64,000 nucleotides of DNA from Elmis aenea (lineage: Eukaryota; Arthropoda; Insecta; Coleoptera; Elmidae). The first letter of the stretch is position 1, and each line of letters opens with the position of its first letter. The notes under the pieces are model-generated. The model did not search any database and was not told where the DNA came from. It worked only from the letters and a program-made list of their open reading frames with translations. A program made the translations under genes and the position numbers. The stretch is from positions 56,985,415 through 57,049,414 of the forward strand of contig OX393578.1 in assembly GCA_947652605.1 (NCBI GenBank), written 5' to 3'. Shown in pieces: positions 16,017-62,501 of the stretch.

Positions 16017-17058
16017 CAGGGTTTTATAAGTATTGCAAAAAAATTCATGAGGTGATTCCTTATCGAAAGTTAAGGGGGTCTTTTATATAAAAATGTTTCC
16101 TTAGACGTCTTTTTTTGGAGTTACACTCCCTAAAGGGGAGCGGTAAAATTAGGTTTTTATTTTAAATAAAATTTGGATAAATGTAGGAGAATAATATTTG
16201 GTAGATGTTTTGTATTTATTAAAAGGTTTCCCATAGTAATATTGTCAATCATCTCCCACCTTCACAGGGGGCTGAAAATTGCGACCCGTGTTGGTTTTTT
16301 GATCAGAACTTTTAAGTGGGTTTAAATTTTGCAATTTAAAATGTTTCTTAAAAGCTTGATTTATTTAGAAACTTTCTTTAATCTTTAGTTTCCTCGTGAA
16401 ACCTATAGTTTTTGAGTAAAAAATAAAATAAGTAAACATGCATCATTTAATATTCCAATATAAAACGATTCATTTTGGTGGTTACCACGGTGTGTTTATG
16501 TTCATAACGGATAGAATTGACAAATGTTATTCATTTTGATGTTTACGCGGCGAAAACGCGACAACGCCCGTCAATTCTATCCAATATGAACATAAACAAA
16601 CCGTGGTAACCACCAAAATGAATCGTTTTGCATTGGAATATTTAATGATGCATGTTTACTTATTTTATTTTTTACTCAAAAACGGTAGTTGTCCCGAGAA
16701 AAACTAAAGATTAAAGAAAGTTTCTAAATAAATAGGGCTTACATTAAATTTCATTAAAAAATTTTAACCTATTAAAAAATTCTGATTAAAAAACCAATAG
16801 GGGTTGCACTTTTTAGCCCCCTGTGAAGGTGGAAAATGATTGAAAATTTAACTATTGGAAAGCTTTTAATAAGTATAAAACATCTACCAAATATCCTACA
16901 TATACCCCATTTTAGAAATGAAAAAAATACCTAATTTTCTTTAGGGGGGTGTAACTCCGAAAGGAGGCGTCTAAGGAAAAAAATTTGTATAAAAATCCCC
17001 TTAATTTCTGATAAAGAACAACCTGATGAATTTTTTGCAATACTTAAGAAACACCCTG
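16017..17058. mobile_element. Palindromic CAGGG element, family P1
   Basis: A 1042-bp near-palindrome. The left end TA-CAGGGTTTTATAAGTATTGC mirrors the right end GCAATACTTAAGAAACACCCTG. The arms of ~510 bp stay alignable almost to the centre near 16540, and include CACCTTCACAGGGGGCT and AAATAAGTAAACATGCATCATT with their complements. No ORF is present. The flank is TA on the left and TG on the right. A shorter family copy lies at 47105-47963. Ends and TA flank are consistent with a non-autonomous Tc1/mariner-type element. Confidence 0.88.
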
Positions 17059-18029
17059 TGCACAGTTTGATTCAAGTGTAACCAAAAATGTGTTTTGGAA
17101 AAATGAAATCTCTACTTAATTTCCAAAATTAAAAGTGAATTGATTAGCATGTAAAGTACAAGGTGTAACGAACTATTTCATGGATTTTAATTTAGCAAAA
17201 AATTAATTACAGTTTAATTGACTTCGCAGTTCTTCAGGTTAGACAGATCTCTCCATATGTAATTTACTGGTATCTCTCTCGTCTGTTATAAAATTGGTTT
17301 CATTTTTCAGATCAACAAATGACAGACGCTCCATTTTTTCGAGCAAATGAAAGCAAAACATCTAATTAATAAGATTGTCAGTAACTGTTCTTAATAAACT
17401 GAAACGCGCACAAAAAATGACCGACATTTTTGCTGTTGACCATCTCACTAGCAGGAAACAGTTTTGTGGTCGTAAGAAGTAAAGATTCCACAGACACTTG
17501 AGTGATTCCCAAAGCCACGGTTCACGATTAGATCACTAAACGCAGATACATCAACACTGTTTTACAGTTGCGTGAAAAATTAGTAATTTCAATCATTTAC
17601 CAACTTGCCGATGCATGAATACTTTAAGAGATACAATTAAATTTAGTATTCCCGCTAACGTAGCATGATTTGCAAACTCAGAACTTATTTTCCGAATGTT
17701 GAAATTAAGGACTAACATTTTTTTTGACAATAACTTTTCCACAATTTTGAATAAAACCTCAACATTAATTAATTACGTTGTACGTACTACCTAACTAAAT
17801 AGAGTTGATAATAATATAAGTAGGATTAATTTAATTATAACTAATTTTTTAACAGGAGGATTGCATTGACATTGTTGATAAGAGAAGATTAAAAATATAA
17901 TGTCAAATAAACAAACTTGCCTTGAATGTCAGTAAGCGCTGTAGAATTTATTTTACACTAAACAAAAATATAATCCTACATAACTATTCTTTGAATAATT
18001 CAACTCTCATGAATACCTACCACAGTGGT
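17059..18029. other. No recognisable feature
   Basis: AT-rich, without ORFs of note or repeat partners that I can see. Confidence 0.5.
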
Positions 18030-18125
18030 AAAAGATTTAGGAATTCTATAAGACCCTAAATTTCTTTTTGCTAAACATATCGAGTACATTAAAAATAAAT
18101 CTCTTAAAATGCTTGGTTTACTTCG
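18030..18125 (+). pseudogene. LINE RT 3' fragment (Jockey/CR1-like)
   Basis: The plus strand reads FAKHIEYIKNKSLKMLGLLR, the segment just after the RT thumb in Jockey/CR1-type LINEs (D.KL.F..HI..I..KS.KMLG). The copy at 30661-31340 continues where this one stops. Here the LINE is cut by hAT sequence at about 18126, and its 3' end resumes at 18844. Confidence 0.75.
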
Positions 18126-18843
18126 AAAAGGACTACCTAATGTAAAAGAAGATTTATTGGATGATGTGTTGCTAGTAGGATTTAACGGAATGTGAAAATG
18201 TATATTGTATGGTATGTACAAACTATAAAGTTAAAGTATATTTCAAGTTACCTAATATAAGTATTTTTTAATATCTTTTTTATTTATAACATTTACTAAA
18301 TTATCTACTTGAATTCATTCTTTTGTCTTTTTAAATAATTACAGCAGCATCTTATTTACTTCAAATGCACAGATTTTTAGTACTAAAACAAATTGAAAAC
18401 AGCACTTGCTATATTTTCATATTTTTAGATAAAGATCGTGTGTCTAATTTAACCTAATCACGTTGTGTTTTTGCACCTTACGGGTGTTAAACTTAATAAA
18501 ATGGTTAAATGTTAATGTGTTTAACGATTTGGTAAATTTAATATGGCGATGGTTAGCCAGTCTAAAATATGCTGTCCGTGAGCATCAAACCCCATCGTCA
18601 TCGTATATATTTTAGTTGAGACGCAAATATTGTTATCGTATTTATAGAGGGTTGTGGTGACTAGAAAAAAAAATGATTTTTTGACGACAAAAAAAAAATT
18701 GTTGAACCGGTTTTAACAGTTATTATTTCGGTTCACGAAAACGAAAAAAGATTTTTTTCGGTTAGAACGAAAACGATAGGTATAGGTATTTCGTTTTCGT
18801 TCCGAACAGAAACGAACGGAATTTTTTTCGTTTTTAGTCCCTG
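18126..18843 (-). mobile_element. hAT fragment, inverted copy of the 37366 element
   Basis: Matches, in inverted orientation, the first ~720 bp of the hAT element at 37366-38555, ending in the same AGTCCCTG terminus. It includes runs of TTCGTTTTCGTT words and AACCGGTTTTAACAG. Only one terminus is present and the other side joins LINE sequence, so it is a partial copy lying within a LINE. No transposase. Confidence 0.82.
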
Positions 18844-18965
18844 CTCTAAAGTAATCCCATTTTAACTCGATTATTTACTCAACTATATATGTATATTAAT
18901 AATAAAAACGAGAACATAATTTGGGCTCGGCCTGTTTTGTTCTGTTCTGTGTTAATAAATAAATA
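18844..18965 (+). pseudogene. LINE 3' UTR fragment
   Basis: CTCTAAAGTAATC, then TATATTAATAATAAAAACGAGA and TTTGGGCTCGGCC, ending in TAAATAAATAAA, matches the 3' end of the LINE at 31225-31345. It is the tail of the LINE interrupted by the hAT fragment. Confidence 0.75.
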
Positions 18966-19539
18966 AATTACTAAGCGTAAATTCATAATGCAGGTGACTC
19001 TAATTGCCCCGAGTCGTTTTCATTTCGCTAAATTTCCTTGCAATGGTATACTTTGCACTTAAATATGTTTGCGTTTCGAATTACATATTATTTATGTTAT
19101 GTGAGAATTGATTGGTAACACATATAATGCAATTATGAATACATGTTACAGGTACTTGCAATTTTGCTAATTACATAACAACATACTACAAACTCGACCA
19201 CCTTTGAAGACAACCGCAAACTACGTCTGCCTCAGGGTGTTTAACTTACAATAAGTCATACGTTTAATGTGCTCTTGTTAACGATAATTTTAATCTCATT
19301 TTTACTCGTATCCAGACGATTGCAGTGTTATAGTATTCATTATTAAAGATTAATTAATGCAATATGCAAGTTGGGTAATAACTTCATGTACCACGACCGT
19401 GTTTAGTGGTTTAATTGCCCAATTATTTGTTTTATGCATTCTTAATTTTTAAACATCGAAGTAAGTTAGCGTTTGATTTAGAGTCGCGATTTTACAAGTA
19501 ACCTGTAATTAGCAATTAAAAAGGCTAGAATGATAATTT
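18966..19539. other. No recognisable feature
   Basis: AT-rich, no ORF or element end seen. Confidence 0.5.
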
Positions 19540-19893
19540 TTGCTTAATAAAAGCGTTTAATGTTGGTGTCACTCGTTACAATTTTTTTTAGAAACTGGCA
19601 AGTCGGTAATAAATTCCCGAAACGTCGCATGAAAAATATATTTAGAGATTCTGATTCCTTGCAAAAAGTGGCCATGAAAAAGTTGTTACAGAAATGAAAT
19701 TCGACATCAAATGCAAAAGTTACGGGCAAAAAACAAAAATCCACTTTTTTACTTTTTTCCCTATATCTCAAAAACTAAAGTTCTATTTGCTTCAAATTAT
19801 TAAGCACCTGAATATACAACTTTGCCCTAAATTAACCGAAGTCGTAACTCTTACGAGATCCCCATAGTGGCCCTCGAAAAACGAGAACCCTGT
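19540..19893. mobile_element. One-ended CAGGGTTCTCG element half
   Basis: The right end reads GGCCCTCGAAAAACGAGAACCCTG-TA, preceded by CTTACGAGATCCCCATAGTGG, a word order shared with the palindrome at 60435-61116. A left end is not found. The 75-codon minus-strand frame inside (19544-19771) has no domain. The left limit is approximate. Confidence 0.55.
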
Positions 19894-19896
19894 ATA

Positions 19897-21710
19897 GCAT
19901 CGGCCTGTAGTATTTTATCTAAAGACTTAAAAACATATTCATAAATGATACCAAATTATTCTCAACTGAACGACGTGGTGTGAAACTATATTGTTGACTG
20001 GAGATATAAGGTTGATATACAGGGTGTCCCAGATTACATTTCCAGCATGGGGATCTCGCTTATTATAAGAGATACAGGTTTGCTTAAATTAGATGAATTG
20101 TTCCTTGGTATGAGAGAAGGCACAATCAATTTTTAAAAGTACAAAATTCCTCGTACTTCAGATGTTATAGCAAAAAATATGAAAATGTCCAATTTCTTTT
20201 TTCTCTCATAACTTTTTTGTCGTAATCATTAGAACAATTTTATTTGTACTTTCTTAAGGCACTTTTTAATGGAGAATGTAACTGTTATTTTAGATTATTT
20301 TTAACACCTACCATTTTCGAGATATTACCCCTAACTTCATTTTTTCTTATGGCCCGCGAAGTTGGCTATGGAATAGTTGAATGTGCTTTTTTTTCCTCTT
20401 TACAATGAGATATTACTTGCTACATTTATTTTTATAAATAAGTCACAAAATCAAGAAAAATCGTATTTTACCTATCACTTATCAAGCTATCTATAATAAT
20501 AAAAACAAAAAACAACTAATTATGTGTCAAATGACACTTACCATTTGTCTGCGGTATCATTTATTAGAATTTTATAGTATTGTTGTATAATTCGATAGTC
20601 TTTGTAGCAAATTTGTTATGAGCACATTTACAACTAATTAAAAATTGTATATGTTGAAATGCCACATTATTTACAATAGAAACTGTGTAAAATAAATAAT
20701 TCTAATTAATTATTGATTTGTTTTGGATTTTTGGTTGGTTTGTCGAAAAAACCATATACTTTTAAATTTATTTCCAAATTTTTGTAATTACGCATCCTTC
20801 GTTGCCTTTTCTCGGGATATAGCTCTAATTACATTCGCTCAGCTTCTTCACAGTTTTTATGGCAAAGAATGTAGCATCTCAACATGTCAAATTAATCGCT
20901 ATTTTTAAATGTTGCTATCATTATAACAATTACTACAAAGACTCTCAAATTACACAACAATACTATTAAATTCTCATAAATGATACCGCAGACAAATAGT
21001 AACTGTTATTTGACACTTAATTAGTTGTTTTTTGTTTTTATTTTCATAGATAACTTGATAAGTGTTGGGTAAAATACGATTTTACTTGATTTTGTAACTT
21101 ATTTATAAAAATAAATGTAGCAAGTAATATCTCATTGTAAAGAGGAAAAAAAAGCACATTCAACTATTCCATAGCCAACTTCGCGGGCCATAAGAAAAAA
21201 TAAAGTTAGGGGTAATATCTCAAAAATGGTAGGTGTTAAAAATAATCTAAAATAACAGTTACATTCTCCATTAAAAAGTGCCTTTTATAAAGTACAAATA
21301 AAATTGTTCTAATGATTAAGACAAAAAAGTTATGAGAGAAAAAAGAAATTGGACATTTTCATATTTTTTGCTATAACATCTGAAGCACGAGAAATTTTGT
21401 ACTTTTAAAAATTGGTTGTAGCTCCTCTAATACTAAGGAATAATTCATCTAATTTAAACAAACCTGTATCTCTTATAATAAGCGAGATCCCCATGCTGGA
21501 AATGTAATCTGGGACACCCTGTATAGCAAAAATTTTATCATATATCACAGATTTAAATAGCTTTGCTGTGCAGCAGAGGATAGAAACAGGTCTATAGTTT
21601 CTGCTCGAGTCTTGTCTCCGGATTTAAAGTTTGGAAAAGGCGAGCTTGTTTAAAGGGAATCGGTACTCTGACAACCATTTGTTAAAAAGTATAGTGATTG
21701 GCTTTGCTAA
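19897..21710 (-). pseudogene. LINE RT fragment split by a palindromic element
   Basis: On the minus strand, 21710-21524 reads PIITKPITILFNKWLSEYRFP and, further on, RNYRPVSILCCTAKLFKSVI, the RT finger motif (NYRPISIL...K.FE). The text resumes at 20017-19897 with SSQQYSFTPRRSVENNLVSF (Q.GF...RSV.TNL). The 1.5-kb palindrome at 20020-21521 lies exactly between them, flanked by TA. Removing it brings consecutive RT motifs together, although one frameshift remains. Jockey-like by motif wording. A further element cuts it at 19893. Confidence 0.82.
20020..21521. mobile_element. Palindromic CAGGGTGTCC element, family P2
   Basis: A 1502-bp near-palindrome with perfect outer words CAGGGTGTCCCAGATTACAT and complement, and TA on both sides. 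The arms of ~590 bp share AGCATGGGGATCTCGCTTAT, CCGCGAAGTTGGCTATGG and CAAATGACACTTA-type words with their complements. The unmatched centre lies at about 20600-20940 and holds only a 61-codon frame without a domain. It is inserted in a LINE RT, which proves it moved. A diverged half copy is at 26695-26975. Confidence 0.93.
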
Positions 21711-24960: not shown

Positions 24961-26692
24961 ATTGTAGTTGCATTTTTGTCATTCTTTCCTATAAACACAT
25001 ATTTGTACGAGTAGTTTGTTCTACTTATGATGTACAACTTTATCAAAAAATCGTTTGTTGATTGACGAAACCCAAATGCTGGCGTTGTAGGACCAAAGTT
25101 ATGACCGTAATATTTTAACGTTAATGTGTTTTTACTAAAGTTCTCATAACTTGGCCCTTTTGAAGTGTTACATGTTTTAGTAACTGATGCATCAGCATTT
25201 GTTGCAATGTTATTCCTTTAAAATTAAATGATATAACATTGAAGTAAAATAAAATAATTGATCTTAGACAGGGTGTCATATTTCATTAAATATTACTCAT
25301 CTTTTTATTGAAAAACATCCTGTAGAAATGCTACAACAGCTTCAAGACTCTCGTCTCTTTGTCAGAACCAATCTTATACGATAAGTTTGCTACCGAAGAG
25401 AAGACGGGAGACTGGTCTAGCATTTTTACAAGACGTTATCTGTAGAAATTTTTAAATTATGTACCTTATTTATTTTTATCTGATACAGGCATAAAACAAT
25501 GTATTTAGGCATGAAAGCGACGCATAATTCAATAAACAGAAATCACTTTCAGTTAAAACTACTGTTACACATTTTAACCACAGAAATTTAAACGAAATCT
25601 CGAAACATTTAGCCACAAATAACGTGTGCTGATTTCTGAAATATTCCCAAGCGATAATGTTCAACTTATTTGTTACTGTTATACAAATTACATTCTCAAC
25701 CTCTTTATTTAATGTCTAAAGTAATATTCAAATATTAATACAATCTTTGCCCGTTTCCGTACTGAAAAGACAAACAAAACCTCTAAAAGTAACGTAACGT
25801 GTTAATGTATGCTGATCTCAGACAATAAATAAGTAACATACATTTGCTTTAATGACTGTAAATGACAGTTATTATTTAAATTACAATAGATTACTTAATA
25901 TGCGCTTCTAAATAAATCTTGCAAGTAAGAATAAATCTACAACTGTACAATTAAATGCGCAACTAAATCGCAGGGCAACAAATTAATTGTGTACAAAATT
26001 TAGGAGGTTTGTGCTAAATTTATTCCAATTAACTTTTGATGCACGTATTAACTGTCTTCATAGCGTATCATATGACACAAAGAAGAGTAAATTAGTTGTC
26101 AGGGTTTTCTTAAGGTACAGCGTAACATTTTGGTTGATTTCGTAAATTTTGTGTGCGCTACCGTTAAAAATCTAAAGTTACAAGGTCAGGCGAACAGGGA
26201 GAAATGAATCGTAACCGGAAATTTTGTTGATATCTTTGCAAATACACTTTTGCTTCACATTATAAACGTTTTGGGTGAACATTTTTATTGTTTGAAGTAG
26301 AATCCATATAAAGAACGCAATTAGAATCGTATCCAACACAATCTCTTATTGTTGAGTTGCGTGTCGATCAAACAAATACACACACAACGTAAATTTGCAT
26401 ATAATAAAATAGCTTCCATTTTATTCTTCCTAGTTGTTCCGAGCACTCTAGATTGTCAAAGGCTCATTTATTAATGTACTGCTATAACTGCAAATTAAAG
26501 CAAATGCAACTGGAATAATCCGAATATTGCATTATAGGAGGTTTTGTATTTCTTTTTCCGTTATGGTTAACTAGGCATCGATAACAGTTAACTGTGAGAC
26601 AATATATTATTAAAAATATAATACAGTCTGCTTTGCAGTAGCATGTGCTAAGCAGTTTATTCAAAGAACTATATTGTGAAATAATCTTCTAT
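24961..26692. other. No gene; tiny TIR remnant
   Basis: The only structure noticed is an eroded ~60-bp fragment at about 25268-25325 with CAGGGTGTCAT at one end and ACATCCTG at the other, probably a collapsed CAGGG-type element. The short minus-strand frames here have no domain. Confidence 0.4.
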
Positions 26693-26694
26693 AC

Positions 26695-26975
26695 AGGGTG
26701 TGCCAGATTACATTTACAGTATGGGGATCTTGCTTATTACAAAAGATGCAAGTTTGTTTAAATTGGATGAATTATTTTCAAGTGTGAGAGGAGCTACAAT
26801 AAATTTTTAAAGGTACAAAATTTCTCGTACTTCAGATGTTATAGCAAAAAAATATAAAAGTGTTGAATTGTTTTTTCTCTCATAACTTTTTTATTTTATT
26901 CATTAGATCAATTTTATTAGAACTTTCTGAAAGAACTTTTAATGAATAATGTAACTGTTATTTATAATATTTTTT
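26695..26975. mobile_element. Half copy of palindromic family P2
   Basis: Starts TA-CAGGGTGTGCCAGATTACAT and follows the left arm of the element at 20020 (TATGGGGATCTTGCTTATTA, TTCTCGTACTTCAGATGTTAT, TAATGTAACTGTTATTT) for about 280 bp, then stops. The opposite arm is missing. Confidence 0.8.
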
Positions 26976-33768: not shown

Positions 33769-34655
33769 CAGCGTGTTCCCGTTATTGGTGCAAATATTTA
33801 GAGTGGTGATAGAGGATCTTTGTCTAAGTAAAAAATACAAGTAAAACTTTTCCCTAAAATCGAATGCCAAGCAGATATCAACCCTTACTTGATTTTGTTA
33901 CACTTCTGTATTTAAAAGGCTCTGTCGCCGAAAACATCTATTTTATCGTAAAAAGCCTACACGCTTTTTAATAGAACATAACATTTTCTACAATACTGGT
34001 TATAATTACTTTTTGTCTACAGGCAATGGTTTAAAAGCTAAAAAGCAGTTTGTACAAAAAAAAAAATTAAAAATGTAAAAACTTTGCAACCGCTGTATCT
34101 TTAAAACGAAAGGTTGCACAAAAAACAAATGGCTTATTCCGAATAGCAAATTCTATGGGCTACAACTTTGGTTTTGTAAAAATTTTCGAAAAATCAAACC
34201 GAGTTTCCGGAAAAGCTGCAAATAAGGAACAGAGTGAAAAAACAATCCGAGAAATAATGTTTTGTATTTAAAAATGGCATAGCATCGACACTATTGTATT
34301 GTGTATAATCGTCATAATTTTCAAGAGTTTCTATGAAGTAAAACCTGCAACTAGGGAGGTTAAGGAAGAGAATAAGAATTGCTGTTCAAAAAGTTAACGA
34401 AAGTGAAAAAAAATGATAAAAATTAATTTTGTAGGAAAATGCATTGCTCCATTAAAAAGCTTCAAGGTTTTTTACAATAAAATTAATATTTTCGGCGACA
34501 CGGCCTTTTACATGCAGAGTTGTAAAAAAAATCAAGTAAGCGTTGATATCTGCTTGACATTTGATTTTAGGAAAAAGATTTACTTGTATTTTCTTCTTAG
34601 AAAAAGGTCCTATATCACCACTTAAAATATTTGCGGTGATAACGGGGACACCTTG
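33769..34655. mobile_element. Palindromic element, family P3, short copy
   Basis: TA-CAGCGTGTTCCCGTTATTGG at the left and complement GATAACGGGGACACCTTG-TA at the right. The arms of ~250-300 bp share GTGGTGATAGAGGA, AGATATCAACNCTTACTTGAT and TCGCCGAAAA words with the larger copies at 41126 and 58500. The central segment is shortened and partly unpaired. No ORF function. Confidence 0.85.
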
Positions 34656-35872: not shown

Positions 35873-36158
35873 AGTTATTTATGTATCAAGGCCAAAAAGT
35901 ACGTTTTGGCCGAGGTGCATAATACATTTTTTGTGCGATCGAATTAAAAACAATTTAAATTTTTAGTAATTTTCAAAATTATAGGTTAGAAACTACGTGA
36001 CATTCTGTCACTGACAGATGACGGCGTATGTACTGCATTGCCGGCCCTCTCCTTAGCAACGGCCGTAAAAGTTACTTTTTCGGCCGTTGCTAAGGGTAAC
36101 GGCCTGAAAAGTAACTTTTACGACCGTTGCTAAGGATAGGGCCGGTAATGCAGTACTT
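35873..36158. repeat. Inverted copy of the window-start MITE
   Basis: The reverse complement of positions 1-228 with few differences. It ends in the 43-bp palindrome at 36052-36094, whose 14-bp arms CTTAGCAACGGCCG are perfect. A further diverged hairpin (about 36097-36136) and a second GGGCCGGTAATGCAGTAC follow, so the end has been partly duplicated. Confidence 0.85.
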
Positions 36159-41063: not shown

Positions 41064-41119
41064 CAGGGTGTGTTTAATAGCTAAGGCCCTACAGTGTCTT
41101 ATCTATTTGACGCACCCCG
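41064..41119. mobile_element. 56-bp collapsed CAGGG element
   Basis: TA-CAGGGTGTGTTTAATAG runs to GACGCACCCCG-TA in only 56 bp, directly next to the larger palindrome at 41126. It probably represents two ends joined by deletion. Confidence 0.55.
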
Positions 41120-41125
41120 TATATA

Positions 41126-42781
41126 CAGGGTGTCCCCGTTATCACCGCGAATATTTTAAGTGGTGATAGAGGACCCTTTTCTAAGAAAAAAATTCAAGTA
41201 AAATTTTTTCCTAAAATCAAATGCTAAGCTGATATCAACACTTACTTGATTTTTTTACACTTCTGCATTTATAAGACTCTGTCGCCGAAAATATCAATTT
41301 TATCGTAAAATACCTCAAAGCTTTTTAATAGAGCATGAAGTTTTCTACAAAATTAGTTCTATTTATTTTTTGTCTACAGGCAATGGTTTGAGTGTTATAA
41401 AGCAGTTTGTACAAAAAAATGTAAAATATTTACAAAATTTAATTGTTTCTTAAACTTTGCAACCGCTGTATCTTTAAAACGAAAGGTTGTACAAAAAAAC
41501 CGACGGCCTATTCCGGATAGCAAATTTTATGGGCTACAACTTTGGTCGAGTGAACTTTTTTGAAAATCAAACCGATTTTCCGGAAAAGCTGAAAATAAGG
41601 AATAGAGTGCAAAAACAAAATTTCCTACAAATATTGTTTTGTATTTAAAAATGCTTTTAAAGAGAGTGCGATTACGTGATTGAAAATGATGGAGTTCATT
41701 TTGAACACTTATTGAAGTAATTTTGTGGTTACATGTTAATTTTATTGCGTCCAGATGGATTTGCATTGTTTTGCATTTTATCGTTTTCGAAAAACAAAAA
41801 CTACTGGTAATTATGATATTTTGTATTTAAAAATGCTATAGCATCGGCAACATTCATAAAATTATGTATCTCATCAGTTTCAAAGCTTTTTATGAAATTT
41901 TAAATTCTTCAGAAACCAGCTAACGAACAAAAAACTGTTAAATTGCATATAAATAAGTTATGTTGATTTTTAAAAACGCCGCATCTTTTTAACGAAACGT
42001 CGTAGAGCAAAACGAATGCCTATTGCGGATAAGGCATTTAACGGACTACAACTTCGATAAATATGTTGTTCAATAAAACTAAATGTATCAGAAATATTTA
42101 TAACAGTGAAAAAGGTGAAAAAAAAACGATAAAATGCAAAACAATGCAAATCCATCTGGACGCAATAAAATTAACATGTAACCACAAAATTACTTCAATA
42201 AGTGTTCAAAATGACTTCCATCATTTTCAATCACGTAATCGCACTCTCTTTAAAAGCATTTTTAAATACAAAACAATGTTTGTAGGAAATTTTGTTTTTG
42301 CACTCTATTCCTTATTTTCAGCTTTTCCGGAAAATCGGTTTGATTTTCAAAAAAGTTCACTAAACCAAAGTTGTAGCCCATAAAATTTGCTATCCGGAAT
42401 GGGCCGTCGGTTTTTTTGTACAACCTTTCGTTTTAAAGATACAGCGGTTGCAAAGTTTAAGAAACAATTAAATTTTGTAAATATTTTACATTTTTTGTAC
42501 AAACTGCTTTATAACTCTCAAACCATTGCCTGTAGACAAAAAATAAATAGAACTAATTTTGTAGAGAATTTTATGCTCTGTTAAAAAGCTTGAAGGTATT
42601 TTACGATAAAATTAATATTTTCGGCTAGAGTCTTATAAATGCAGAAGTGTAAAAAAATCAAGTAAGTGTTGATATCAGCTTGGCATTTGATTTTAGGAAA
42701 AAATTTTACTTGAATTTTTTTCTTAGAAAAGGGTCCTCTATCACCACTTAAAATATTCGCGGTGATAACGGGGACACCCTG
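41126..42781. mobile_element. Palindromic element, family P3, with fossil transposase ends
   Basis: A 1656-bp near-palindrome, TA-CAGGGTGTCCCCGTTATCAC to complement, TA on the right. The arms are ~700 bp or more. In the left arm at 41661-41720 (+) and mirrored in the right arm, codons read RECDYVIENDGVHFEHLLK then stop. This fits the C-terminus common in insect Tc1/mariner-type transposases (...NGGHFEHLL-stop). Upstream codons VLYLKMLLKRV are one frame off. So the arms probably derive from the 3' end of an autonomous element. The 79-codon frames open on the opposite strand of both arms are shadows of it. Confidence 0.9.
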
Positions 42782-47104: not shown

Positions 47105-47963
47105 CAGGGTGTTTCTTAAATATTGCGGGAAAAAAATTAAGGTTATTTCTTATTTTATTATTAAGGGAGGTCTTGCATATAAGGATTTTTCCTTGGACGT
47201 CTCCTTTTGGAGCTACACCCTTCTAAACAGTAGCGATAAAATTAGGTTTTTATTTAATTTTTCAACTTTGGATAAATGTAATAATGATATTAGGTAATGT
47301 TTCATACTTATTTAAAGGTTTCCCAAAGGAATATTTTGAATCACCTCCCACCTTTACAGGGGGCTAAATAGTACGACCCCTGTTGGTTATTTTATCAGAA
47401 CTTTTTGGTGGGTTAAAATTTTACAATTAAAAGATTGGTTTTTGAAAGGTTGATTTATTTAGAGACTTTTTTATTCTTTAGTTTTTCTCGTAAAACCTTG
47501 AGCAAAAAATAAAATAAGTAAACATGCACCATTAAAAAATATCCCAATATAAAACGAATCATTTTTTCTCAAGAACTGTAGGTTTTACGAGAAAAACTAT
47601 GGAATATATAAATCGAGCTCTCAAACAAATATTTTTAATTGCAAAATTTTAACCCCTCAAACAGTTCTGATAACATAACCAACAGGGGTCGCACTATTTA
47701 GCCCCCTGTGAAGATGGGAAGTGATTGAAAATATTACCATGGAAAACCTTTTAATAAGTATAAAACATCTGCCAAATATCATCCTCCTACATTCATTCAA
47801 ATTTGAGCAATAAAATAAAAACCTAATTTTATTGCTTCTCTTTGGGGGGGTGTAACTCCGAAAGGAGACATCCAAGGAAAAATTGTTGTATGAAAGACCT
47901 CCCTTAATTTTTGATAAGGAATCACTTTCCAAATGTTTTTGCAATATTTAAGAAACACACTTG
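47105..47963. mobile_element. Palindromic CAGGG element, family P1, shorter copy
   Basis: TA-CAGGGTGTTTCTTAAATATTGC to GCAATATTTAAGAAACACACTTG-TA, 859 bp. The arms share GGTGGGTTAAAATTTTACAA, CTCCCACCTTTACAGGGGGC and GACGTCTCCTTTTGGAG words with 16017-17058. The centre is shortened. The right terminus is slightly mutated (ACACTTG for ACCCTG). Confidence 0.87.
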
Positions 47964-49481: not shown

Positions 49482-49601
49482 TATATTGGGTATAACTGAG
49501 TTTTGGTACGCCCCCTTTTTTCTTTTTTAGTTTTGGTTTAAGATAAATGAAATTTTCGACAGACGATATGTTTAGAAAACCGCATTATTTGAACATATGT
49601 A

Positions 49602-50796
49602 CAGGGTGGTCCAAATTCGATGGGATTGCATGGGTATCTCGGTTAATATTTAAGATAGAGAAACGGTTAAATTACCAAAAATGTGCAGTTTTTTGAGACA
49701 AACTCAGAACCGTTTTCAAAAATATTCTATCATTTCCGGTTTTCGAGTTATCAAATAAAAAGTGTTTTTTTGTCATATAAATAATGTGTCATATCTCCGT
49801 TATTGTTGTAAATATCAAAAATATTTATTAAGATTATTTTTGGATATTTTTATGTTTAATTTGATTATACTAAAAAAAAAAATTTTACGCTCGCCGTTAA
49901 AAAGTTATGACACAAACTTACCTTTTTTTAAATGGAAACGATAGTTGGCTATGACCTATTTAATTTCGTAATTTTTTTCTCATTCCAAATATATAAGAGT
50001 CGATGTATTTATTTTTAATAATACGCAAGTTATGAAGGTTTGTTAGGTTTTTTTTAAAGAAAATCATAGTAGGCTATGAAAACAAAAACCAGACAAGGTG
50101 TAAAACCTTACAAAACTCATGTGGTACAAGTTACCAAGGTTTTTTAATTTGTTGTGGAGATAAACATTGCAAATATTTGAAAATAAGAAAACAACGATGT
50201 AGTCGGTATCAGCAGTAATGTAGGATATTGTTGTTTATCTTATGTTCAAAAAATTTCGTATTTATCTCAATAACAATTTAAAAAACCTTGGTAACTTGTA
50301 CCACATGAGTTTTATAAGGTTTTACACTTTGTTTATTTTTTGTTTTCACAGCCTACTATGATTTTCTTAAAAAAAAAACTAAAAAACCTTCATAACTTGC
50401 GTATTGGTGAAAATAAATACATCAACCCTTATATATTTGAAATGAGAAAAAAATGAGGAATTTAAATAGGTCATAGCCAACTATTGTTTCTATTTAAAAA
50501 AAGGTAAGTTTGTGTCATAACTTTTTAACATAAACTTTTTAAACATAAAAATATCCAAAAATAATCTTAATAAATATTTTTGATATTTACAACAATAACG
50601 GAGATATGACACATTATTAATATGACAAAAAAACACTTTTTATTCGATAACTCGAAAACCGGAAATGATAGAATATTTTTGAAAACGGTTCTGAGTTTGT
50701 CTCAAAAAACTGCACATTTTTGGTAATTTAACCGTTTCTCTATCTTAAATATTAACCGAGATACCCATGCAATCCCATCGAATTTGGACCACCATG
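49602..50796. mobile_element. Palindromic CAGGGTGGTCC element, family P4
   Basis: A 1195-bp near-palindrome, CAGGGTGGTCCAAATTCGAT to ATCGAATTTGGACCACCATG. The arms of ~590 bp include AACGGTTAAATTACCAAAAA and CTATCATTTCCGGTTTTCGA with complements. TA is on both sides. The centre is at about 50190-50215. No domain-bearing ORF. Confidence 0.9.
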
Positions 50797-50798
50797 TA

Positions 50799-51442
50799 CA
50801 GCGTGGTCTAAATTCGATGGTTTTGCATGGGTATGTTGCTTAATAGTCAAGAGAGAAACGCTTAAATTACCAAAAATATGCAGTTTTTTGAGACAAACTC
50901 AGAACAGTTCTCAAATATATTCTATCATTTCCGGTTTTTCTAGTTTTTTTTTTTTTGTTTACACAGCCTATATTTTGTTTTCAATGTTTAAAAATATTTA
51001 AAAATCCTTGTAACTTGCGTATTATTAAAATTAAATACATCAAACCTTATATATTTGGAATGGGAAAAAAATAAGGAATTTAAATAAGTCATAGCCAACT
51101 AATGCTTTCATTTAAAAAAAGGTAAGTATGTGTCGTAACTTTTTAACGGCGACTGTAAAATTTGTTTTTCCACTATCAAAATTTAGCTACATAAAAATAT
51201 CTAATAATACTCTTCTTAAACTTTTTCGATATTTAAAACAATAAGGGAGATGTGACACATTATAAATATGACAAAAAAAAAATTTTTCTTCAATAACTAA
51301 AAAACCGAAAATGATAGAATATTTTTGAAAACAGTACTGAGTTTTCTTCAAAAAACTGCATATTTTTGGTAATTTAACCGTTTCTCTGCCTTAAGTACTA
51401 AGCGAGATACCCATGTAATCCCATCAAATTTGGACCACCCTG
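50799..51442. mobile_element. Second P4 palindrome, head-to-tail
   Basis: A 644-bp copy starting CAGCGTGGTCTAAATTCGAT and ending TTTGGACCACCCTG-TA, sharing the TA at 50797-50798 with the first P4 copy. The arms are shorter and the two strands less alike. Adjacent copies at one TA suggest insertion of one next to the other. Confidence 0.82.
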
Positions 51443-52002
51443 TACACTATTATTTTACTTCCGGTTTAGCCGGAAATGATCCTTACTTTGTTATTTCAAA
51501 TGTAACTTCCTGTATATTTATGGAAAGAGAGAGTAATTGTGGATACAGCTGCGCTATTTTAACCTCAAATAATATAACATTTTAAGTAGATAAAGCAGCC
51601 TTCCAACACAATTAAAAGTTATTTGTCTTGTTAAATTCGTCAAAAAGTACTCTATTTTAATACGCATGTAGGTGCCACTACCGTTCCATTTCAAAAAATT
51701 TACGTTCTGTCAAAAAACCGATTTTGCAACTTTCAAATCCGATTATAGTATCCTTAATGCTAATTAAAACGTTTTTCGGGCATTTGTTGACACAATGAAA
51801 ATCAATTATGCAGGTCACAGCCCACTAAAGAAAAAATGTTTCGTCAAAAAATTATATGAGATTATAACAATTAACGAAAGTGGTACAGCTATGTCCAAAA
51901 TTGCTTCGTCTTTCCAAATATGTGAAAATATACAGGGTGTTCCATTTGAAATAACAAAGTAAGAGTCGTTTTCAGCGAAACAGGAAGTTAAATAATAGTG
52001 TA
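51443..52002. repeat. Inverted arms with element ends facing inward
   Basis: ACACTATTATTTTACTTCC (from 51445) and GGAAGTTAAATAATAGTGT (to 52001) are inverted. Both continue through TTTGTTATTTCAAATG and complement toward a CCTGTA-type end (about 51514) and a TA-CAGGGTGTTCC start (51933). The element termini thus face each other across ~415 bp of other sequence, the reverse of the usual TIR layout. Confidence 0.65.
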
Positions 52003-52146
52003 CATAATTATATTCAAATAATCCAGTTTTTTACAGTTATGGTATGTCCAAAATTTCATTGATCTATACTCAAAACTAAAACGAAGGTTTTTCTGGTTTA
52101 AACAGGTTTATTCACTTAAAGAAAGTTAATTTTCTTTAATAAAATA

Positions 52147-52188
52147 TCCTACATGTTTCGCCGAACACTTTTATCGGCATCCTCAGGG
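52147..52188 (-). ncRNA. Hammerhead ribozyme-like motif, inverted copy
   Basis: The minus-strand sequence has the same CTGAGGA, GCCGA/TCGGC stem and CGAAACATGTAGG as the plus-strand copy at 52510-52552. It lies in the opposite arm of the same element, so transcripts of either strand would carry one motif. Confidence 0.6.
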
Positions 52189-52401
52189 CTTGTGTTCCTC
52201 AGTTTTGGCTAATCTTGTTTGTTCTTTGATGATTTTCTTGAGTTGTTCAGTGATGTTGTTTCCATATTGACGTTGAATTTCTTTGAAAAACCTGTTTAAA
52301 CCAGAAAAACCTTCGTTTTAATTTTATCTAATCAAGAAAAACAGGAGAAACCAATTTAATCAATCAATCTCAACTGGTTAAAGTAAACTAAATCAACTTC
52401 A

Positions 52402-52515
52402 ATGTCATTTTTCAAAGAAATTCAACGTCAATATGGAAACAACATCACTGAACAACTCAAGAAAATCATCAAAGAACAAACAAGATTAGCCAAAACTGAA
52501 GAACACAAGCCCTGA
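52402..52515 (+). CDS. 37-codon ORF of the Penelope-like arm
   Basis: ATG at 52402 opens a frame starting MSFFKEIQRQYGNNI and ending KTEEHKP, with its TGA inside the hammerhead core. An inverted, almost identical copy on the minus strand at about 52185-52295 reads the same but lacks a visible start. It may be the N-terminal leftover of the element's polyprotein. Alternatively it is simply a frame that happens to be open. Confidence 0.35.
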   Translation: MSFFKEIQRQYGNNITEQLKKIIKEQTRLAKTEEHKP

Positions 52516-52552
52516 GGATGCCGATAAAAGTGTTCGGCGAAACATGTAGGAT
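52510..52552 (+). ncRNA. Hammerhead ribozyme-like motif
   Basis: Read as RNA: CUGAGGA core (52512-52518), stem II GCCGA...UCGGC closed by a ~9-nt loop, then GAAAC and AUGUA. C-U-G-A-N-G-A plus G-A-A-A are the conserved hammerhead core. A-C/G-U can form a two-pair stem III around AU, leaving GUA as a cleavage triplet. Stem I is short (CC/GG). This short-stem form is typical of motifs in Penelope-like elements. Activity is not shown. Confidence 0.6.
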
Positions 52553-52705
52553 ATTTTATTAAAGAAAATTAACTTTCATTAAGTGAATAAACCTGTTTAA
52601 ACCAGAAAAACCTTCGTTTTAATTTTATCTAATCAAGAAAAACAGGAGAAACCAATTTCATATACTCAAAACTAAAGAGAGAAAAAAAGAGGCTGTACCA
52701 GAACT

Positions 52706-54060: not shown

Positions 54061-55481
54061 ACTATTAGTAAGGTGACCAACTTTCTTACAATAAAAAGGA
54101 GGACACAAATTAAAGAGCAAAAACAAAGTAAATAAATAAAAGACACATTTTATGCATTGCAAACATTATAATATGATAAATGCTTAATAAAAATATTTGC
54201 AACTAACACTAACATGAAATTTTATGCTTACATGCCTATAACTATTTAAAGGAGAACTTCTCCATTGAATGAATATTTTTTAGCAGTGTATTATCTTCTA
54301 ACAATATATTGGAAATATCTGAACAAGAAATGTCTTTCATATTGAATTTTACGGCAAGTGCTGCAGCTAGAGTATCAACATTCAATTACGATTTCTCACT
54401 TGTCCAAATTCATTAGCAATTGAACAAACTCTTTCAACTGCTGCATTAGTTCCAGGGCAGCACATTACAAATTGAACAAGAATAAATAAATTTTCGCATG
54501 GAATATGTCCATTTTTGAAATGGCTGAATATTTCCACCCATCTTTTATCAATTTCAACGTGTTGATTTTCCCATTGTATTAATTTTTCAGAATTTAAATA
54601 TACATTCAGTCTTCTAATTGCTTCAAAGAGACAATTGTCGTCTATTTTATTATCTGGCAATTTTTTAGATAAAAACTCAACACAAGATTCAATAATCTGT
54701 CCAACATACTGGCGATGAAGCCAAAAAACACCATTGAAAACTGTTATTTGAGGTTTGTTTTAGACCATTCTTCGATATATTGAAAACATGTTTGGTAAAA
54801 ATTCTGCACTTCTTTGATAAACTTTTTCGTTATGCCCGGATTTGATTCCTTTAAGTCTGATAATTTTCTTTTAATAATTAAAGGAAGAAATTTTTCTTCA
54901 AATCGAGATTTATATTGAAGGATAAAGTCATTCAAAATAAGGCTAACTTCTGTAGCTGAAATGTGTTCACCTTCAATCTTTTGAATCGTTTTGTGAAAAA
55001 TAGATGCTTGATTATGTACAAAATACATTAATATCTCAGATATTTCATTATTGAAAAACGACTCCAGGATTTTAGGACATTTGTCTAAACTCAAAAAATG
55101 TAAGCGAAGAGGCTCGAATAATTGTAGAACACGCTCTATAGCAGGTGTTTTTTGTATTCAACATTCGCTTCTTCACAAAATTGTTTTAAAGTAGCCACGC
55201 GAACGGTAAAACGACTAAAATACAAATAAATAAATTGTAGTTATTATTAATTCTACATCAATTGGCATGGCACATGACGCCGTGTTGATTGCATTTGACA
55301 AAATATGAACATTACAGCCTATTCCTAGTATTTTCTTTTGGAGATTTACAGATTTTAGTCTTCAAATATCGAAAAGGACAAAAAGGAGGGCAAAAAGGAG
55401 GACACTTTTCAAGGGAGGACAGAAGTGAAAAAAGGAGGACTGTCCTCCCTAAAGGAGGACGGTTGGTCACCTTACTATTAG
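54061..55481. mobile_element. hAT element with perfect 8-bp TSD
   Basis: ACTATTAG is duplicated at 54061-54068 and 55474-55481. Inside are TIRs TAAGGTGACCAAC and GGTTGGTCACCTT. Subterminal GGAGGAC words occur once near the left end and many times at 55376-55460. The 1405-bp body carries the C-terminal half of a hAT transposase on the minus strand. The N-terminal half, including the zinc finger and first catalytic residues, is absent. Confidence 0.95.
54382..55205 (-). pseudogene. hAT transposase, C-terminal half
   Basis: On the minus strand three frames join into one protein. RVATLKQFCEEANVEY is followed, after a 1-base loss in an A-run near 55150, by PAIERVLQLFEPLRLHFLSL and CPKILESFF. After a second shift near 54760 come TVFNGVFWLHRQYVGQ, then NLFILVQFVMCCPGTNAAVE and RVCSIANEFGQVRNRN. 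The last block is the hAT dimerisation domain (...P.SNA..ER.FS...N..RNR). The family is the one often annotated as zinc finger BED or SCAN-domain-like transposase. Two frameshifts and the missing N-terminus make it inactive. Confidence 0.92.
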
Positions 55482-55812
55482 CCATTAATGGTTTTAAATT
55501 ATGACTCACTTATTCAAGAAATAGAAGAAAAAAATGAGCAAATTTAGTACTTGCACTTTTTCCAAAGAAAAATCAATCATTCATAAATCCTTTGGCTTTG
55601 CATTCACTTGTTTCTATCCGCTTGTTTATTTTAGTTTTAATTACTTTATTAAAACCTTAAACAAAAAGTATTTAGACTTCGCTGTAAACTATATTTAAAC
55701 AAATTAATGATAAATTGAAAAGTGCAAAGACTACAGTCCTATATTTTTTATCTGGTCTTTAAGACCAATAAGCAGTTTAATTCTAGCCTAAATTAATAAT
55801 ATTCTAAAAGTT

Positions 55813-57995: not shown

Positions 57996-58092
57996 TGAGA
58001 ATTATATTAATTTTTGAAATATTTAGTCCTTGCATTTTGATACACTTGCACCATTGATCAGGAAGCGTTCTAAATCGTTGCTGGAGGTTTGC

Positions 58093-60312
58093 TGAAAATG
58101 GCTCGGAAACAATTACTTGAAAGAAAATTTCTCGAATACAATTGCTCGAGAAATTGTTCCTCGATTGGAAAGTTCCTCGAAAGCCTGCCTAGTTGCTCGA
58201 ATAACAATTTCTCGGAAAGAAAATTGCTCGACATAATAAAATAAGTTACTTTAAAAAAATATATTAAATTTATATAAATACAAAATAATTAAATGTACTA
58301 GAAAAGTTGTTTACATTTGTTTAAACTTAGAAAAATGTATTTAAATTTATTTACAAATACCTTTTGGACACACTGTACAATATTTTCAAATATCTATAGT
58401 GTTTACCTCAACAACAAATGTAAATGTACACTGTACATGTATTTGTAAATAAATTTACACAACAACTGTTCTAGTACATTTAATTAATTTGTATTTATAC
58501 AGGGTGTCCCCGTTATCACCGCAAATATTTTAAGTGGTGATAGAGGACCTTTTTCTAAGAAAAAATTTCAAGTAAATTTTTTTCCTTAAATCAAATGCTA
58601 AGCTGATATCAACACTAACTTGATTTTTTTATACTTCTGCATTTATAAGACTCTGTAGCCAAAAATATCAATTTTATCGTAAAATACCTTTAAGCTTTTT
58701 AATAGAACATGAAATTTTCTACAAAATTAGTTTTATTTATTTTTTGTCGACAGGCAATGGTTTGAGAGTTATAAAGCAGTTTGTACAAAAAAATGTAAAA
58801 AATTTACAAAATTTAATTGTTTCTTAGACTTTGCAACCGCTGTATCTTTAAAACGAAAGGTTGTACAAAAAAACCGACGGCCCATTCCGGATACCAAATT
58901 TTATTCGCTACAATTTTGGTCAAGTGAAATTTTTTGAAAATCTAACCGATTTTCCGGAAAAGCTGAAAATAAGGAATAGAGTGCAAAAACAAAATTTCCT
59001 ACAAATATTGTTTTGTATTTAAAAATGCTTTTAAAGAGAGTGCGATTACGTGATTGAAAATGATGGAGTTCATTTTGAACACTTATTGAAGTAATTTTGT
59101 GGTTACATGTTAATTTTATTGCGTCCAGATGGATTTGCATTGTTTTGCATTTTATCGTTTTCGAAAAACAAAAACTCCCGGTATTATGATATTTTGTATT
59201 TAAAAATGCCATAGCATCGGCAACATTCATAAAATTATGGATCTCATCAGTTTCAAAACTTTTTTGAAATTCTTCAGAAAACCACCCCTTGTCATTTTTT
59301 TTAAGGAGCTAACGAACAAATTTAACAAAAAATTGTAAAATTGCATATAAATAAGTTATGTAAATTTTTAAAAACGCCGCATCTTTTTAACGAAACGTCG
59401 TAGAGCAAAACGGATGCCTATTGCGGATAAGGCATTTAACGGACTACAACTTCGGTAAATATATTGTTCAATAAAACTAAATGTATCATAGAAATGTCTA
59501 TAATAGTGAAAAGGTGAAAAAAAAACGATAAAATGCAAAACAATGCAAATCCATCTGGACGCAATAAAATTAACATGTAATTACAAAATTACTTCAATAA
59601 GTGTTCAAAATGACCTCCATCATTTTCAATCACGTAATCGCACTCTCTTTAAAAGCATTTTTAAATACAAAACAATATTTGTAGGAAATTTGGTTTTTGC
59701 ACTCTATTCCTTATTTTCAGCTTTTCCGGAAAATCGGTTTGATTTTCAAAAAATTTCACTTGACCAAAATTGTAGCCCATAAAATTTGCTATCCGGAATG
59801 GGTCGTCGGTTTTTTTGTACAACCTTTCGTTTTAAAGATACAGCGGTTGCAAAGTCTAAGAAACAATTAAATTTTGTAAATTTTTTACATTTTTTTGTAC
59901 AAACTGCTTTATAACTTTCAAACCATTGCCTGCAGACAAAAAATAAATAGAACTAATTTTGTAAAGAATTTCATGCTCTATTAAAAAGCTTTAAGATATT
60001 TTACGATAAAATTGATATTTTCGGCTACAGAGTCTTAAAAAGGCAGAAGTGTAAAAAAATCAAGTTAGTGTTGATATCAGCTTAGCATTTGATTTTAGGA
60101 AAAAATTTTACTTGAAATGTTTTCTTAGAAAAAGGTCCTCTATCACCACTTAAAATATTCGCGGTGATAACGGGGACACCCTGTATATTAAATTTTTTTT
60201 AAGTAACTTTTATCAATATTTTGAACAATTTTGTTTTCGAGAAATTGTTATTCGAGCAACTAGGCTTTCGAGGAACTTTCCATTCGAAGAACGTTTTCTC
60301 GAGCAATTTTCC
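58093..60312. mobile_element. Foldback element with 15-bp-repeat arms
   Basis: The left arm (58093-58260) is built of ~15-16 bp units around TTGCTCGAA / TTTCTCGAA, with CTCG spaced 14-16 bp apart and one 20-bp gap. The right arm (about 60200-60312) is the inverted version; GAAAGTTCCTCGAAAGCC and TAGTTGCTCGAATAACAATT occur in both. Inside the left arm lies a further palindrome (about 58285-58495; TAATTAAATGTACTAG and complement). A P3 palindrome (58500-60183) is inserted in the middle. Minisatellite-like inverted arms resemble foldback elements. No flanking duplication is evident. Confidence 0.8.
58500..60183. mobile_element. Palindromic element, family P3, full copy
   Basis: A 1684-bp near-palindrome, TA-CAGGGTGTCCCCGTTATCAC to complement and TA. 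It matches 41126-42781 throughout, including the mirrored transposase-like C-terminal codons (GVHFEHLLK-stop) and the antisense frames at 58901-59230 and 59543-59782. It sits inside the foldback element at 58093-60312. Confidence 0.92.
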
Positions 60313-60434
60313 GCACCCCGTGCGGGAAGCAGGCCATCGTTAGCCCTATCCTGGACCGCTATTACTATTACAATATAAATTTAAGGACCCTTTCAAATAA
60401 TTATCAACAAATTAATTAAAAAAATGAATGTTTA

Positions 60435-61116
60435 TAGGGTTCACATAGATGGGGATCTCGTAAACGGTAAGAGCTACAAAGAAGTTTAAATTAGACAAAT
60501 TGTTTCCCTTTCCGAGATCTATTCAGTGATGCTTTAATGTTTTAAAAAAGTTCCATGGCACGCTAGAAAATAAACAAAAATCGTAATGGTTTTTTTTTTT
60601 TAATCCTTAATAACTTGGTTATACTTGATGGTACAAAAATATTTTTTGGGGAAAAATAGTAATCATCGTTTCAGGGTTTAAAACCGCGTCTTCTTTGATA
60701 AGAACCAAGACAGCATATGCGAAACGTCACGTAATCAAAGAAGGCGCGGTTCCAAACCCGGTAATGAAGATTGTAATATAAACAATGGCCGTGAAACCCT
60801 GAAGAATAAAAATGTTGTCGTTTTTTTTACGCACTGTAAAATGAAAACGTTTTTATTTTGCAGTGCGTAAAAAAATCTACAACTTTTCCCCAAAAATATG
60901 TTTGCACCATCCAAGTATAACCGAGTTATTAACGATTTAAAAAAAATGCCGGTTTGATTTTGTTTTATTATCTAGTGTGCCATAGAACTTTTTTAAAACA
61001 TTAAAGCATCACTAAATAGATCTCAGAAAGGGGAACAATTTGTCTGATTTAAACTTCTTTGTAGCTCTTACCGTTTACCAGATCCCAATAGTGGCCCTTC
61101 TATGTGGACCACCCTG
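60435..61116. mobile_element. Palindromic CAGGGTGGTCCACATAG element, family P5
   Basis: The right end is complement of CAGGGTGGTCCACATAGAAG, followed by TA. The left end is eroded (TAGGGTTCACATAG). Arms share GGTAAGAGCTACAAAGAAGT and AGACAAATTGTTTCCC with complements. Two inner hairpins are visible: one at about 60673-60760 (CGCGTCTTCTTTGAT / ATCAAAGAAGGCGCG) and one at about 60820-60868 (ACGCACTGTAAAATGAAAACG and complement). Confidence 0.87.
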
Positions 61117-61345
61117 TATATTGTGGAATAAGTTAGAGTAGGAAGAGATGGAAGTTTTTTAGATTACCTCGTTAGGTAATTATTTCAAAAATTCTACTAC
61201 GATTTAATAATTCTGAACATAAAATAACATGATTAACTTGTTCTCTCTTTAAAAGACTATAAGAGTACCTACTTTTCTACACATTTTTTGAGCAAATACT
61301 CTGATAATAGATTTATAATCAATATTTTCAAATGTTTTTTGTTCA

Positions 61346-61674
61346 ATGTATAAATGTGCTAAATGGGGTCTACAGACCTACCAATTTGTCGGGACAACCG
61401 GCCGACCATTCCGATAAATTGTTGAATGTGTAGTGTTTCACCCGACCAACACGACAGTTGGAACGGTCGGGTGCCAGCTATCCAACAAGCCAACGTCCCC
61501 ACTACATTCCTTTAGATAAGGACTATTAAACCGAAAATTTAACATCAAAATGAATAAAAAGCTATGACGTTTAGCTGTGTTGGTTGGACTGATCGGTAGG
61601 TGTGTAGACAACACCCAACTCGGAGTTCCCGACTGTCGGCCCCGACAAATTGCCTTATGTATAAATGTGCTAAA
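61346..61674. mobile_element. 293-bp insert between 18-bp direct repeats
   Basis: ATGTATAAATGTGCTAAA occurs exactly at 61346-61363 and 61657-61674. The 293-bp insert is GC-richer than its surroundings and has inverted CAATTTGTCGGG-type words near both ends, plus GGTCGGGTG and CCGACTGTCGG inside. An 18-bp duplication is longer than DNA transposons usually make and fits target-primed retrotransposition, but there is no A-tail or tRNA-like head. Type unresolved. Confidence 0.72.
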
Positions 61675-61832
61675 GAGTTAACGTTTTTTTTTGACAATGT
61701 ACCGAAAAGATAATTTATAAATAAGAATTCTTGTCTGTATGTTCACCGAGTTCAAAACAGCTTGAATAACTTTATGATTTGACTGAAACTTTTTGCCTCC
61801 TGATAATTTTATCAGAGGTAAAAAATGTCTTA

Positions 61833-62501
61833 CATGAAAGGTTCACGATATGTTGTCGCTAGAATCTGATCAAGGCTGTGTTTATTGCATCAAGAACATC
61901 AAAACTATAAATGTTTTGCAGAGTTATACGTGCCACTAGCCATTTCCTTCGGAAAAATTGGGAAAGAACTGAAAATATGAGTACCTAATAAAGGTAATTT
62001 TTGCAATCCCCTTGACTATGAAACCGTCAAAGATAAATTCGAAATTCTTCTATTTACCAATGCACGCGTCCTTTGGAAGTAAAAAGGTGCACATTTTTTG
62101 AAAACATCCTAAACGGTTCCGGAGAAAAACGCGAAAAACTAGGCCCTTGTAAAAATTGTTTCCCCTATGTTAAACAACTTCTCAAATCATAGCGCTTTTC
62201 CAAAGGTTTCGTTTTTGACGTTTATTTCCGGAACCGTTTAAGAGTATTTCAAAAAATTTGCACCATTTTACTTGCGATGGATGCGCGCATAGCTAAATAG
62301 AAGAATTTTTATTTTATCTCTAACGTTTTCATGGTCAACGCGATGGCAAAAATTACCTTTATTATTCATCTTTTCCCCAATTTTTCTGAAGAAAATGGCC
62401 CGTGGCACGATAACTCTGCAAAACATTTAGTTTTGATGATCTTGATGCAATAAACACAGCCTTGATCAGATTCTAGCGACAACATATCGTGACCCTCCCT
62501 G
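61833..62501. mobile_element. Palindromic CAGGGAGGGTCACGAT element, family P6
   Basis: Arms of ~300 bp, from ACGATATGTTGTCGCTAGAA at the left to complement at 62473-62492, meet near 62155-62190. The right terminus reads as CAGGGAGGGTCACGATA on the minus strand. The left is eroded to CATGAAAGGTTCACGATA after a TA. Shared inner words include TTTTGCAGAGTTAT and AAACGGTTCCGGA with complements. A piece of the arm recurs at 40855-40945. Confidence 0.83.

Follow-up and report, generated by a model that had tools for sequence, protein, structure and literature searches.

Palindromic transposable elements of the beetle Elmis aenea and their probable descent from long-repeat DD41D Tc1/mariner transposons

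A stretch of 64,000 nucleotides of the Elmis aenea genome (contig OX393578.1, positions 56,985,415 to 57,049,414; hereafter the window) contains ten palindromic elements, which fall into six families, A to F. We propose, with a probability of roughly 0.85, that these palindromes, at least those of families A to E, are nonautonomous derivatives of Tc1/mariner transposons of the DD41D type, several of which have very long terminal repeats. This genome contains transposons that combine a DD41D transposase gene with CAGGGTG-type ends and flanking TA, and family D consists of one end of a Tc1/mariner parent of this kind, duplicated in head-to-head orientation together with the beginning of the transposase gene. 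It can be hypothesised that the transposase of the parents recognises the ends common to both kinds of element and would thereby mobilise the palindromes through a cut-and-paste mechanism with TA as the target.

Comparison of each interval with its own opposite strand revealed inverted arms in all ten, at coordinates close to those first stated. Inverted matches cover 85-100% of the length of eight elements, namely 16017-17058 (99%), 20020-21521 (89%), 41126-42781 (89%), 47105-47963 (100%), 49602-50796 (100%), 58500-60183 (85%), 60435-61116 (89%) and 61833-62501 (98%), and about half of 33769-34655 (55%) and 50799-51442 (47%), compared with a mean of 3% and a maximum of 24% in 200 segments of the same size taken elsewhere in the window. 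These results bear out the ten inverted duplications claimed in the preliminary description of this DNA, together with its estimate of at least six families occupying about 10.8 kb or a sixth of the window (10.82 kb, 17%). The same description called the palindromes near-perfect, which is accurate for some of them; in their main gapped match the arms are nevertheless between 76 and 97% identical, and two are the half-palindromes just mentioned. The arms had been described as pairing nearly to the centre; loops of 161, 335 and 360 nt are present in 20020-21521, 41126-42781 and 58500-60183. TA is found at both ends of eight elements, in agreement with the flanks reported for most copies, the exceptions being the right side of 16017-17058 and 61833-62501. 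The CAGGG-type ends ascribed to all ten are exact at both ends in some copies only, and 61833-62501 is devoid of a TA-CAGGGTG end. The window contains 35 occurrences of TACAGGGTG with at most one mismatch, compared with 5-11 in every one of 20 base-shuffled versions. DNA matches group the elements into families A (41126, 58500 and 33769), B (16017 and 47105) and C (49602 and 50799), with 20020, 60435 and 61833 as the single members of families D, E and F, respectively. A literature search with the exact end motifs returned no transposon paper by title among the matches listed; the end patterns also matched viral contigs (5 loci) and genome contigs (11 loci), collected as L009-L024.

Candidate parents were sought among the transposase loci of the genome, of which 15 loci from 150 DDE_3 matches and 8 loci from 151 DDE_1 matches were read for their ends. 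Five of the 15 DDE_3 loci (L083, L086, L088, L089 and L093) have CAGGGTG- or CCGGGTG-type ends, with TA on both sides in every case; these ends are TACCGGGTGTAACTGAAATC in L083, TACAGGGTGTCCCAGATTACATTTCCAGCATG in L089 and TACAGGGTGCTTAAAAAATGGCGG in both L086 and L088. The L083 element is 2541 bp long and its repeats of 643 bp are 98.8% alike, while L089 measures 2506 bp, with repeats of 595 bp (97% alike) and the gene at 665-1792, and the terminal repeats of L086 extend over 121 bp. L093 is a second parent copy of the L089 type (D-type), with an insertion in one repeat and a transposase match over two stretches. The transposases of L083, L086 and L089 all combine the DDE_3 domain with a DUF4817 helix-turn-helix domain, and in all three the second catalytic D is separated from the third by 41 residues; the only solved structures matched by the L089 protein are Sleeping Beauty and Mos1. 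A pogo-type (DDE_1) parent was rejected, CAGGGTG-type ends having been found around the transposase in none of the eight loci read. Nine places, including L083 (G000:C6:11590816), have an identical DDE_3 score (1.3e-8) and an open frame of 351 residues in eight and 357 in one; the L083-type element has likely been active recently. A 1.37-kb palindrome with TACAGTGTGTCC ends (L094:234-1603) directly adjoins a match to a related transposase, on its 3' side.

The relation between parent and palindrome can be read in family D, analysed here from its single window copy (20020-21521, TA-flanked, arms of 668 and 673 bp, 92% alike), with coordinates counted from the first T of its TA. The left end is identical to L089 over the first 32 bases and the right end shows one difference; matches to the L089 ends extend over 458-484 bp (87-89%), and the end matches to L089 and L093 overall amount to 87-93%, family D thereby sharing both ends and subterminal sequence with these two elements, as is characteristic of a nonautonomous derivative. 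Beyond the end match, D 342-675 corresponds to L089 496-814; the counterpart of D 682-1164 is L089 959-496, read from the opposite strand. The left arm is hence equivalent to positions 1-814 of the L089 element and the remainder to positions 959-1, inverted, the junction between L089 positions 814 and 959 being occupied by six bases of unclear origin. In translation, the right arm and loop (20688-20993, minus strand) match transposase residues 6-102 (58% identity, E value 4e-29), with stop codons, and the left arm (20600-20692, plus strand) matches residues 18-50 of the same protein (E value 0.002). The part of the left arm that lies past the repeat scores 102 against the 5' interior of the parent, where the best of 100 shuffles reaches 35, and 23 against the 3' interior, below the best shuffle of 32; comparison with L093 repeats this picture. 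Both arms consequently extend beyond the 595-bp repeat and reach the beginning of the transposase gene. The two gene starts are turned towards one another, and a stretch of the gene that is present once makes up the loop. The same gene start in both arms is an arrangement that a deletion joining the two ends of a parent cannot produce, but that a single end duplicated in inverted orientation can, and the parental first codons, which point in opposite directions, fix the order of events. We hypothesise that the duplication arose by template switching or by fold-back copying during repair after excision. Elsewhere in the window, 281 bp (26694-26974) match an end of family D at 84-85%, beside a single TACAGGGTG end.

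A second and simpler route is the loss of the interior from a long-repeat parent. In a random sample of 50 kb from five other genome places, scanned for palindromes, those with TACAGGG- or TACCGGG-type ends were found in L050 and L051, along with one ordinary element with matching ends (L047, 22% palindromic). The palindrome at L050:7515-8819 consists in essence of two repeats of the L083 type (82-83%), and L051:8780-9570, which has TACAGGG ends, retains at 9077-9377 a C-terminal portion of a transposase (residues 278-325 and 346-375) that lies for the most part between the arms; both indicate that interior loss of a long-repeat parent also yields such elements.

Family A allows the history of one palindrome to be followed through many copies. 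Its window members are 41126-42781 (TA-flanked, arms of 662 and 659 bp, 97% alike), 58500-60183 (TA-flanked, 93.5% identical to the former, loop included, and enclosed by inverted repeats at 58140-58266 and 60186-60308) and the asymmetric relative 33769-34655 (81-86%). In the host genome assembly searched (516 Mb), the exact 25-base family A end occurs at 912 places, and a reversed control at none. Among the 100 ends listed, all on contig C1, 58 make 29 inward-facing pairs, 23 of which are 1.60-1.72 kb long, and no outward-facing pair occurs within 5 kb. The remaining 42 are unpaired: in the 14 that were inspected, eight have a degenerate partner end, one has inverted arms but no second end, and four are without an inverted arm, and the unpaired end L035 belongs to a copy that is palindromic but broken up by some 2 kb. 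At the family A places inspected, the genome copies are therefore neither mostly single-arm elements nor artefacts, the outcome against which the preliminary description had staked its claim. All of the 25 full-length copies assembled (two from the window, 20 picked by exact ends on both sides and three from the unpaired set) have the loop of 41126-42781 in common; the palindrome was thus inherited ready-made rather than formed anew in each copy, and it is in this form that family A has spread.

The arms of these 25 copies diverge by 4.4% within a copy and by 5.6-5.7% between copies; the within-copy arms are the closer in 23 copies, and the sign of the difference was reversed in none of 500 column bootstraps. 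At 45 sites the minor allele is present in at least five arms, and at 39 of them it occurs in both arm sets; the two arms of the same copy both carry it in 76 cases, where 27.4 would be expected. Arms that had evolved separately since the ancestor should differ at least as much within a copy as between copies, which is not the case, and our reading is that conversion between arms (or recopying) homogenised those of family A, for the most part before the copies inserted at their present sites; the homogenising agent would be conversion rather than another copying process. Private changes number 294 in a single arm and 14 common to the two arms of one copy, which points to little conversion after insertion; 56 changes are common to arms of different copies. 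The elements L027 (4.3 kb) and L028 (2.0 kb) were rejected as parents of family A, neither having a transposase match; L027 is a family A variant with a tandem duplication of about 1.65 kb.

The other families add to this picture in different ways. Family B comprises 16017-17058 (arms about 80% alike) and 47105-47963 (TA-flanked, arms about 76% alike). The former has 6727 candidate genome places, and the best 40, when scored, all match on both strands, a sample of best-scoring places that is biased towards full palindromes. Family C is represented by 49602-50796 (TA-flanked, arms 88% alike) and by the adjoining, asymmetric copy 50799-51442, a central TA being common to both. The two lie inside an L083-like long-repeat Tc1/mariner remnant (49488-52085, in parts 49488-49603 and 51442-52085), which they split at one TA; when the flanks are joined, the L083 sequence is recovered with one TA only. 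This empty site, the TA flanks and the many dispersed copies substantiate the mobility earlier attributed to the palindromes. Families A, B and C, together with family E (60435-61116, TA-flanked), have only the end motif and TA in common with the transposase-bearing elements, to which family A adds a weak C-terminal motif, and on these shared ends and TA we infer that all four would derive from DD41D parents. Family F (61833-62501) has different ends, like CTWACCAGGGAGGGTCACG, and no TA pair. Palindromes of its type, 61833-62501 and L050:5213-5823, whose ends are close to CTWACCAGGGAGGGTCACGAT and are not flanked by a TA pair, may represent a second superfamily that has also taken the palindromic form. 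The proposal that unrelated families had repeatedly taken the same head-to-head form is therefore not upheld for A to E, which are probably not unrelated, given their common TA-CAGGGTG-type ends and the Tc1/mariner parent of family D; family F may be an independent case.

Several observations weigh against a general descent from DD41D parents and against the homogenisation of arms. In ten of the 15 DDE_3 loci and all eight DDE_1 loci the transposase is bordered by ends of another or an unclear kind, D is the only one of the six window families with an identified parent, and the ends of family F differ from those of A to E. Any activity of a transposase on the palindrome ends is putative. In each family A arm, the 17-residue match to the transposase C-terminus (profile positions 337-353 of 353) is weak (E value 0.15-0.39); among 3594 six-frame pieces these four matches, from copies that are not independent, rank next after two pieces of family D, and as a trace of a DD41D transposase the motif is suggestive only. 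Twenty of the 25 family A copies were selected by exact ends on both sides. Arm homogenisation was absent from the seven best-scoring copies of family B, where divergence is 5.8% within copies and 4.6% between copies on the same side, 16017 being left out of the mean as its arms differ by 16%; this opposite result confines the demonstration of homogenisation to family A.

Within the proposed descent from DD41D transposons, the palindromes other than D may all be simple internal deletions of long-repeat parents, without inverted duplication, a possibility to which we assign somewhat less than an even chance. The repeats of L083 already make up about half of the element, the two sample palindromes described above have the composition expected of such deletions, and deletion-derived miniature inverted-repeat transposable elements (MITEs) are reported in aphids (PMC5490172). 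On the other hand, both arms of family D hold the 5' gene start of the parent past the 595-bp repeat, and nothing detectable from its 3' interior, so the inverted-duplication route does operate, and parents have been identified for D alone, not for A, B, C or E. A broader proposition, that one-ended inverted duplication is a recurrent route from long-repeat DD41D elements to palindromic parasites, whose ends would be kept matched by arm conversion in the mobile phase, making them a self-repairing mobile form and not a passive deletion product, appears doubtful at present. Somewhat less probable still is that the palindromic form itself is selected, because the arms repair each other, the ends stay matched and mobility is prolonged; the preliminary description had suggested that this form may favour mobility or survival. 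The homogenisation in family A, and the predominance of palindromic copies among its places inspected on C1, are compatible with such an advantage; family B lacks the homogenisation, the private changes of family A are mostly one-armed, and descent from parents with long repeats accounts for the form with no need of selection. The parent of family D already had repeats of 595 bp, so that the repeated form may be inherited with no special advantage needed, and much of it may have come from long-repeat parents in this way.

Near-perfect inverted repeats are known to pose a risk in genome assembly, and the palindromes could in principle be artefacts of this kind. We regard this explanation as extremely improbable here: the ends are dispersed by the hundred, full-length copies with TA flanks have the same loop in different flanks, the family C insertion has an empty site with a single TA, and the 912 exact family A ends and the one loop of all 25 copies are incompatible with artefacts. 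The palindromes might also be sources of double-stranded RNA, feeding small interfering RNA production against the parents or serving as editing substrates, a role that we consider unlikely. The single element folded, 49602-50796, is predicted to form one long hairpin (-769 kcal/mol), in line with the hairpins anticipated earlier and as follows from its being a palindrome; five elements contain 86 to 832 21-mers with an exact complement in the same element, and exact runs of up to 71 bases are common to family D and the L089 repeats. Against such a role, family D and the L089 coding sequence have no common run longer than 17 bases, and the scan of 102 of the 225 open frames of the window established no host exon.

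These 102 frames (of the 225 of at least 50 residues outside the palindromes) were scanned with Pfam and gave transposon domains and three weak matches, none of them confirmed: DGKD_4H (6e-4) and TERT_thumb (3e-3), whose source frames were not found, and DUF6751 (5e-3). The last, below the cut-off, comes from a 64-residue open frame at 63175-63366 (minus strand), without a relative in PDB, which is possibly an exon. A scan with Rfam gave nothing at the gathering score. The inverted repeat at 52072-52626, with 219-bp arms that are 99% complementary, holds a CTGAGGA...GAAAC stretch, which we take to resemble the hammerhead core of Penelope-like elements, no Rfam match having been obtained. Smaller structures comprise a 261-bp palindrome at 11937-12197 (93% over its whole length), a small palindrome at 36030-36156, of which an incomplete copy opens the window (1-68), and tiny elements of 60 and 58 bp between facing CAGGGTG-type ends (41062-41121 and 25267-25324). 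Transposon remnants include a FLYWCH/MULE transposase (2373-3119), a reverse transcriptase (7577-8131) and, below the cut-off, a hAT transposase (54385-54759).

Elements of similar description are known from another beetle, the seed beetle Callosobruchus maculatus. They are large, palindromic and nonautonomous Tc1-Mariner elements in 13 families of 654-2199 bp, and the group to which they belong accounts for 5.2% of that genome (PMC10849321). They resemble the window palindromes as described, being 1-2 kb long, nonautonomous, Tc1-Mariner and often fully inverted, and by this analogy the latter can be regarded as the same kind of element. The DD41D motif of the parents is found in rosa (PMC7325037) and in LTIR (Lsra), an aphid DD40/41D clade with repeats above 460 bp and elements above 2.3 kb (PMC5490172), which also has long repeats and deletion-derived MITEs. 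L083 and L089 fit the LTIR description by motif and size, while L086, with its shorter repeats, lies outside these sizes. As far as that source describes them, the LTIR MITEs are internal deletions and do not include the one-ended inverted duplication of family D. Very long inverted repeats, often without coding capacity, also characterise foldback elements such as Tetris (PMC4079207) and Galileo (PMC2775673), a form said to have arisen independently in several lineages through gene loss and repeat elongation, and possible homogenisation of the Tetris repeats is mentioned (PMC4079207). Tetris differs in its 8-10-bp target duplications and its placement in Mutator, whereas the window elements have a TA target. 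Literature searches on palindrome conversion, on inverted duplication by gap repair and on repeat homogenisation listed no paper whose title or abstract opening reports the one-ended duplication or the arm homogenisation for Tc1/mariner.

As far as the literature was searched, three results are new, namely the parent, the derivation of family D from one end and the comparison of arms. The section on the large palindromic elements of C. maculatus names no parent or origin and makes no arm comparison (PMC10849321); in E. aenea the origin of such an element can be read from family D, and family A offers a countable case of arm homogenisation. Taken together, these two families make the question of whether the palindromic form is inherited or favoured testable genome by genome.

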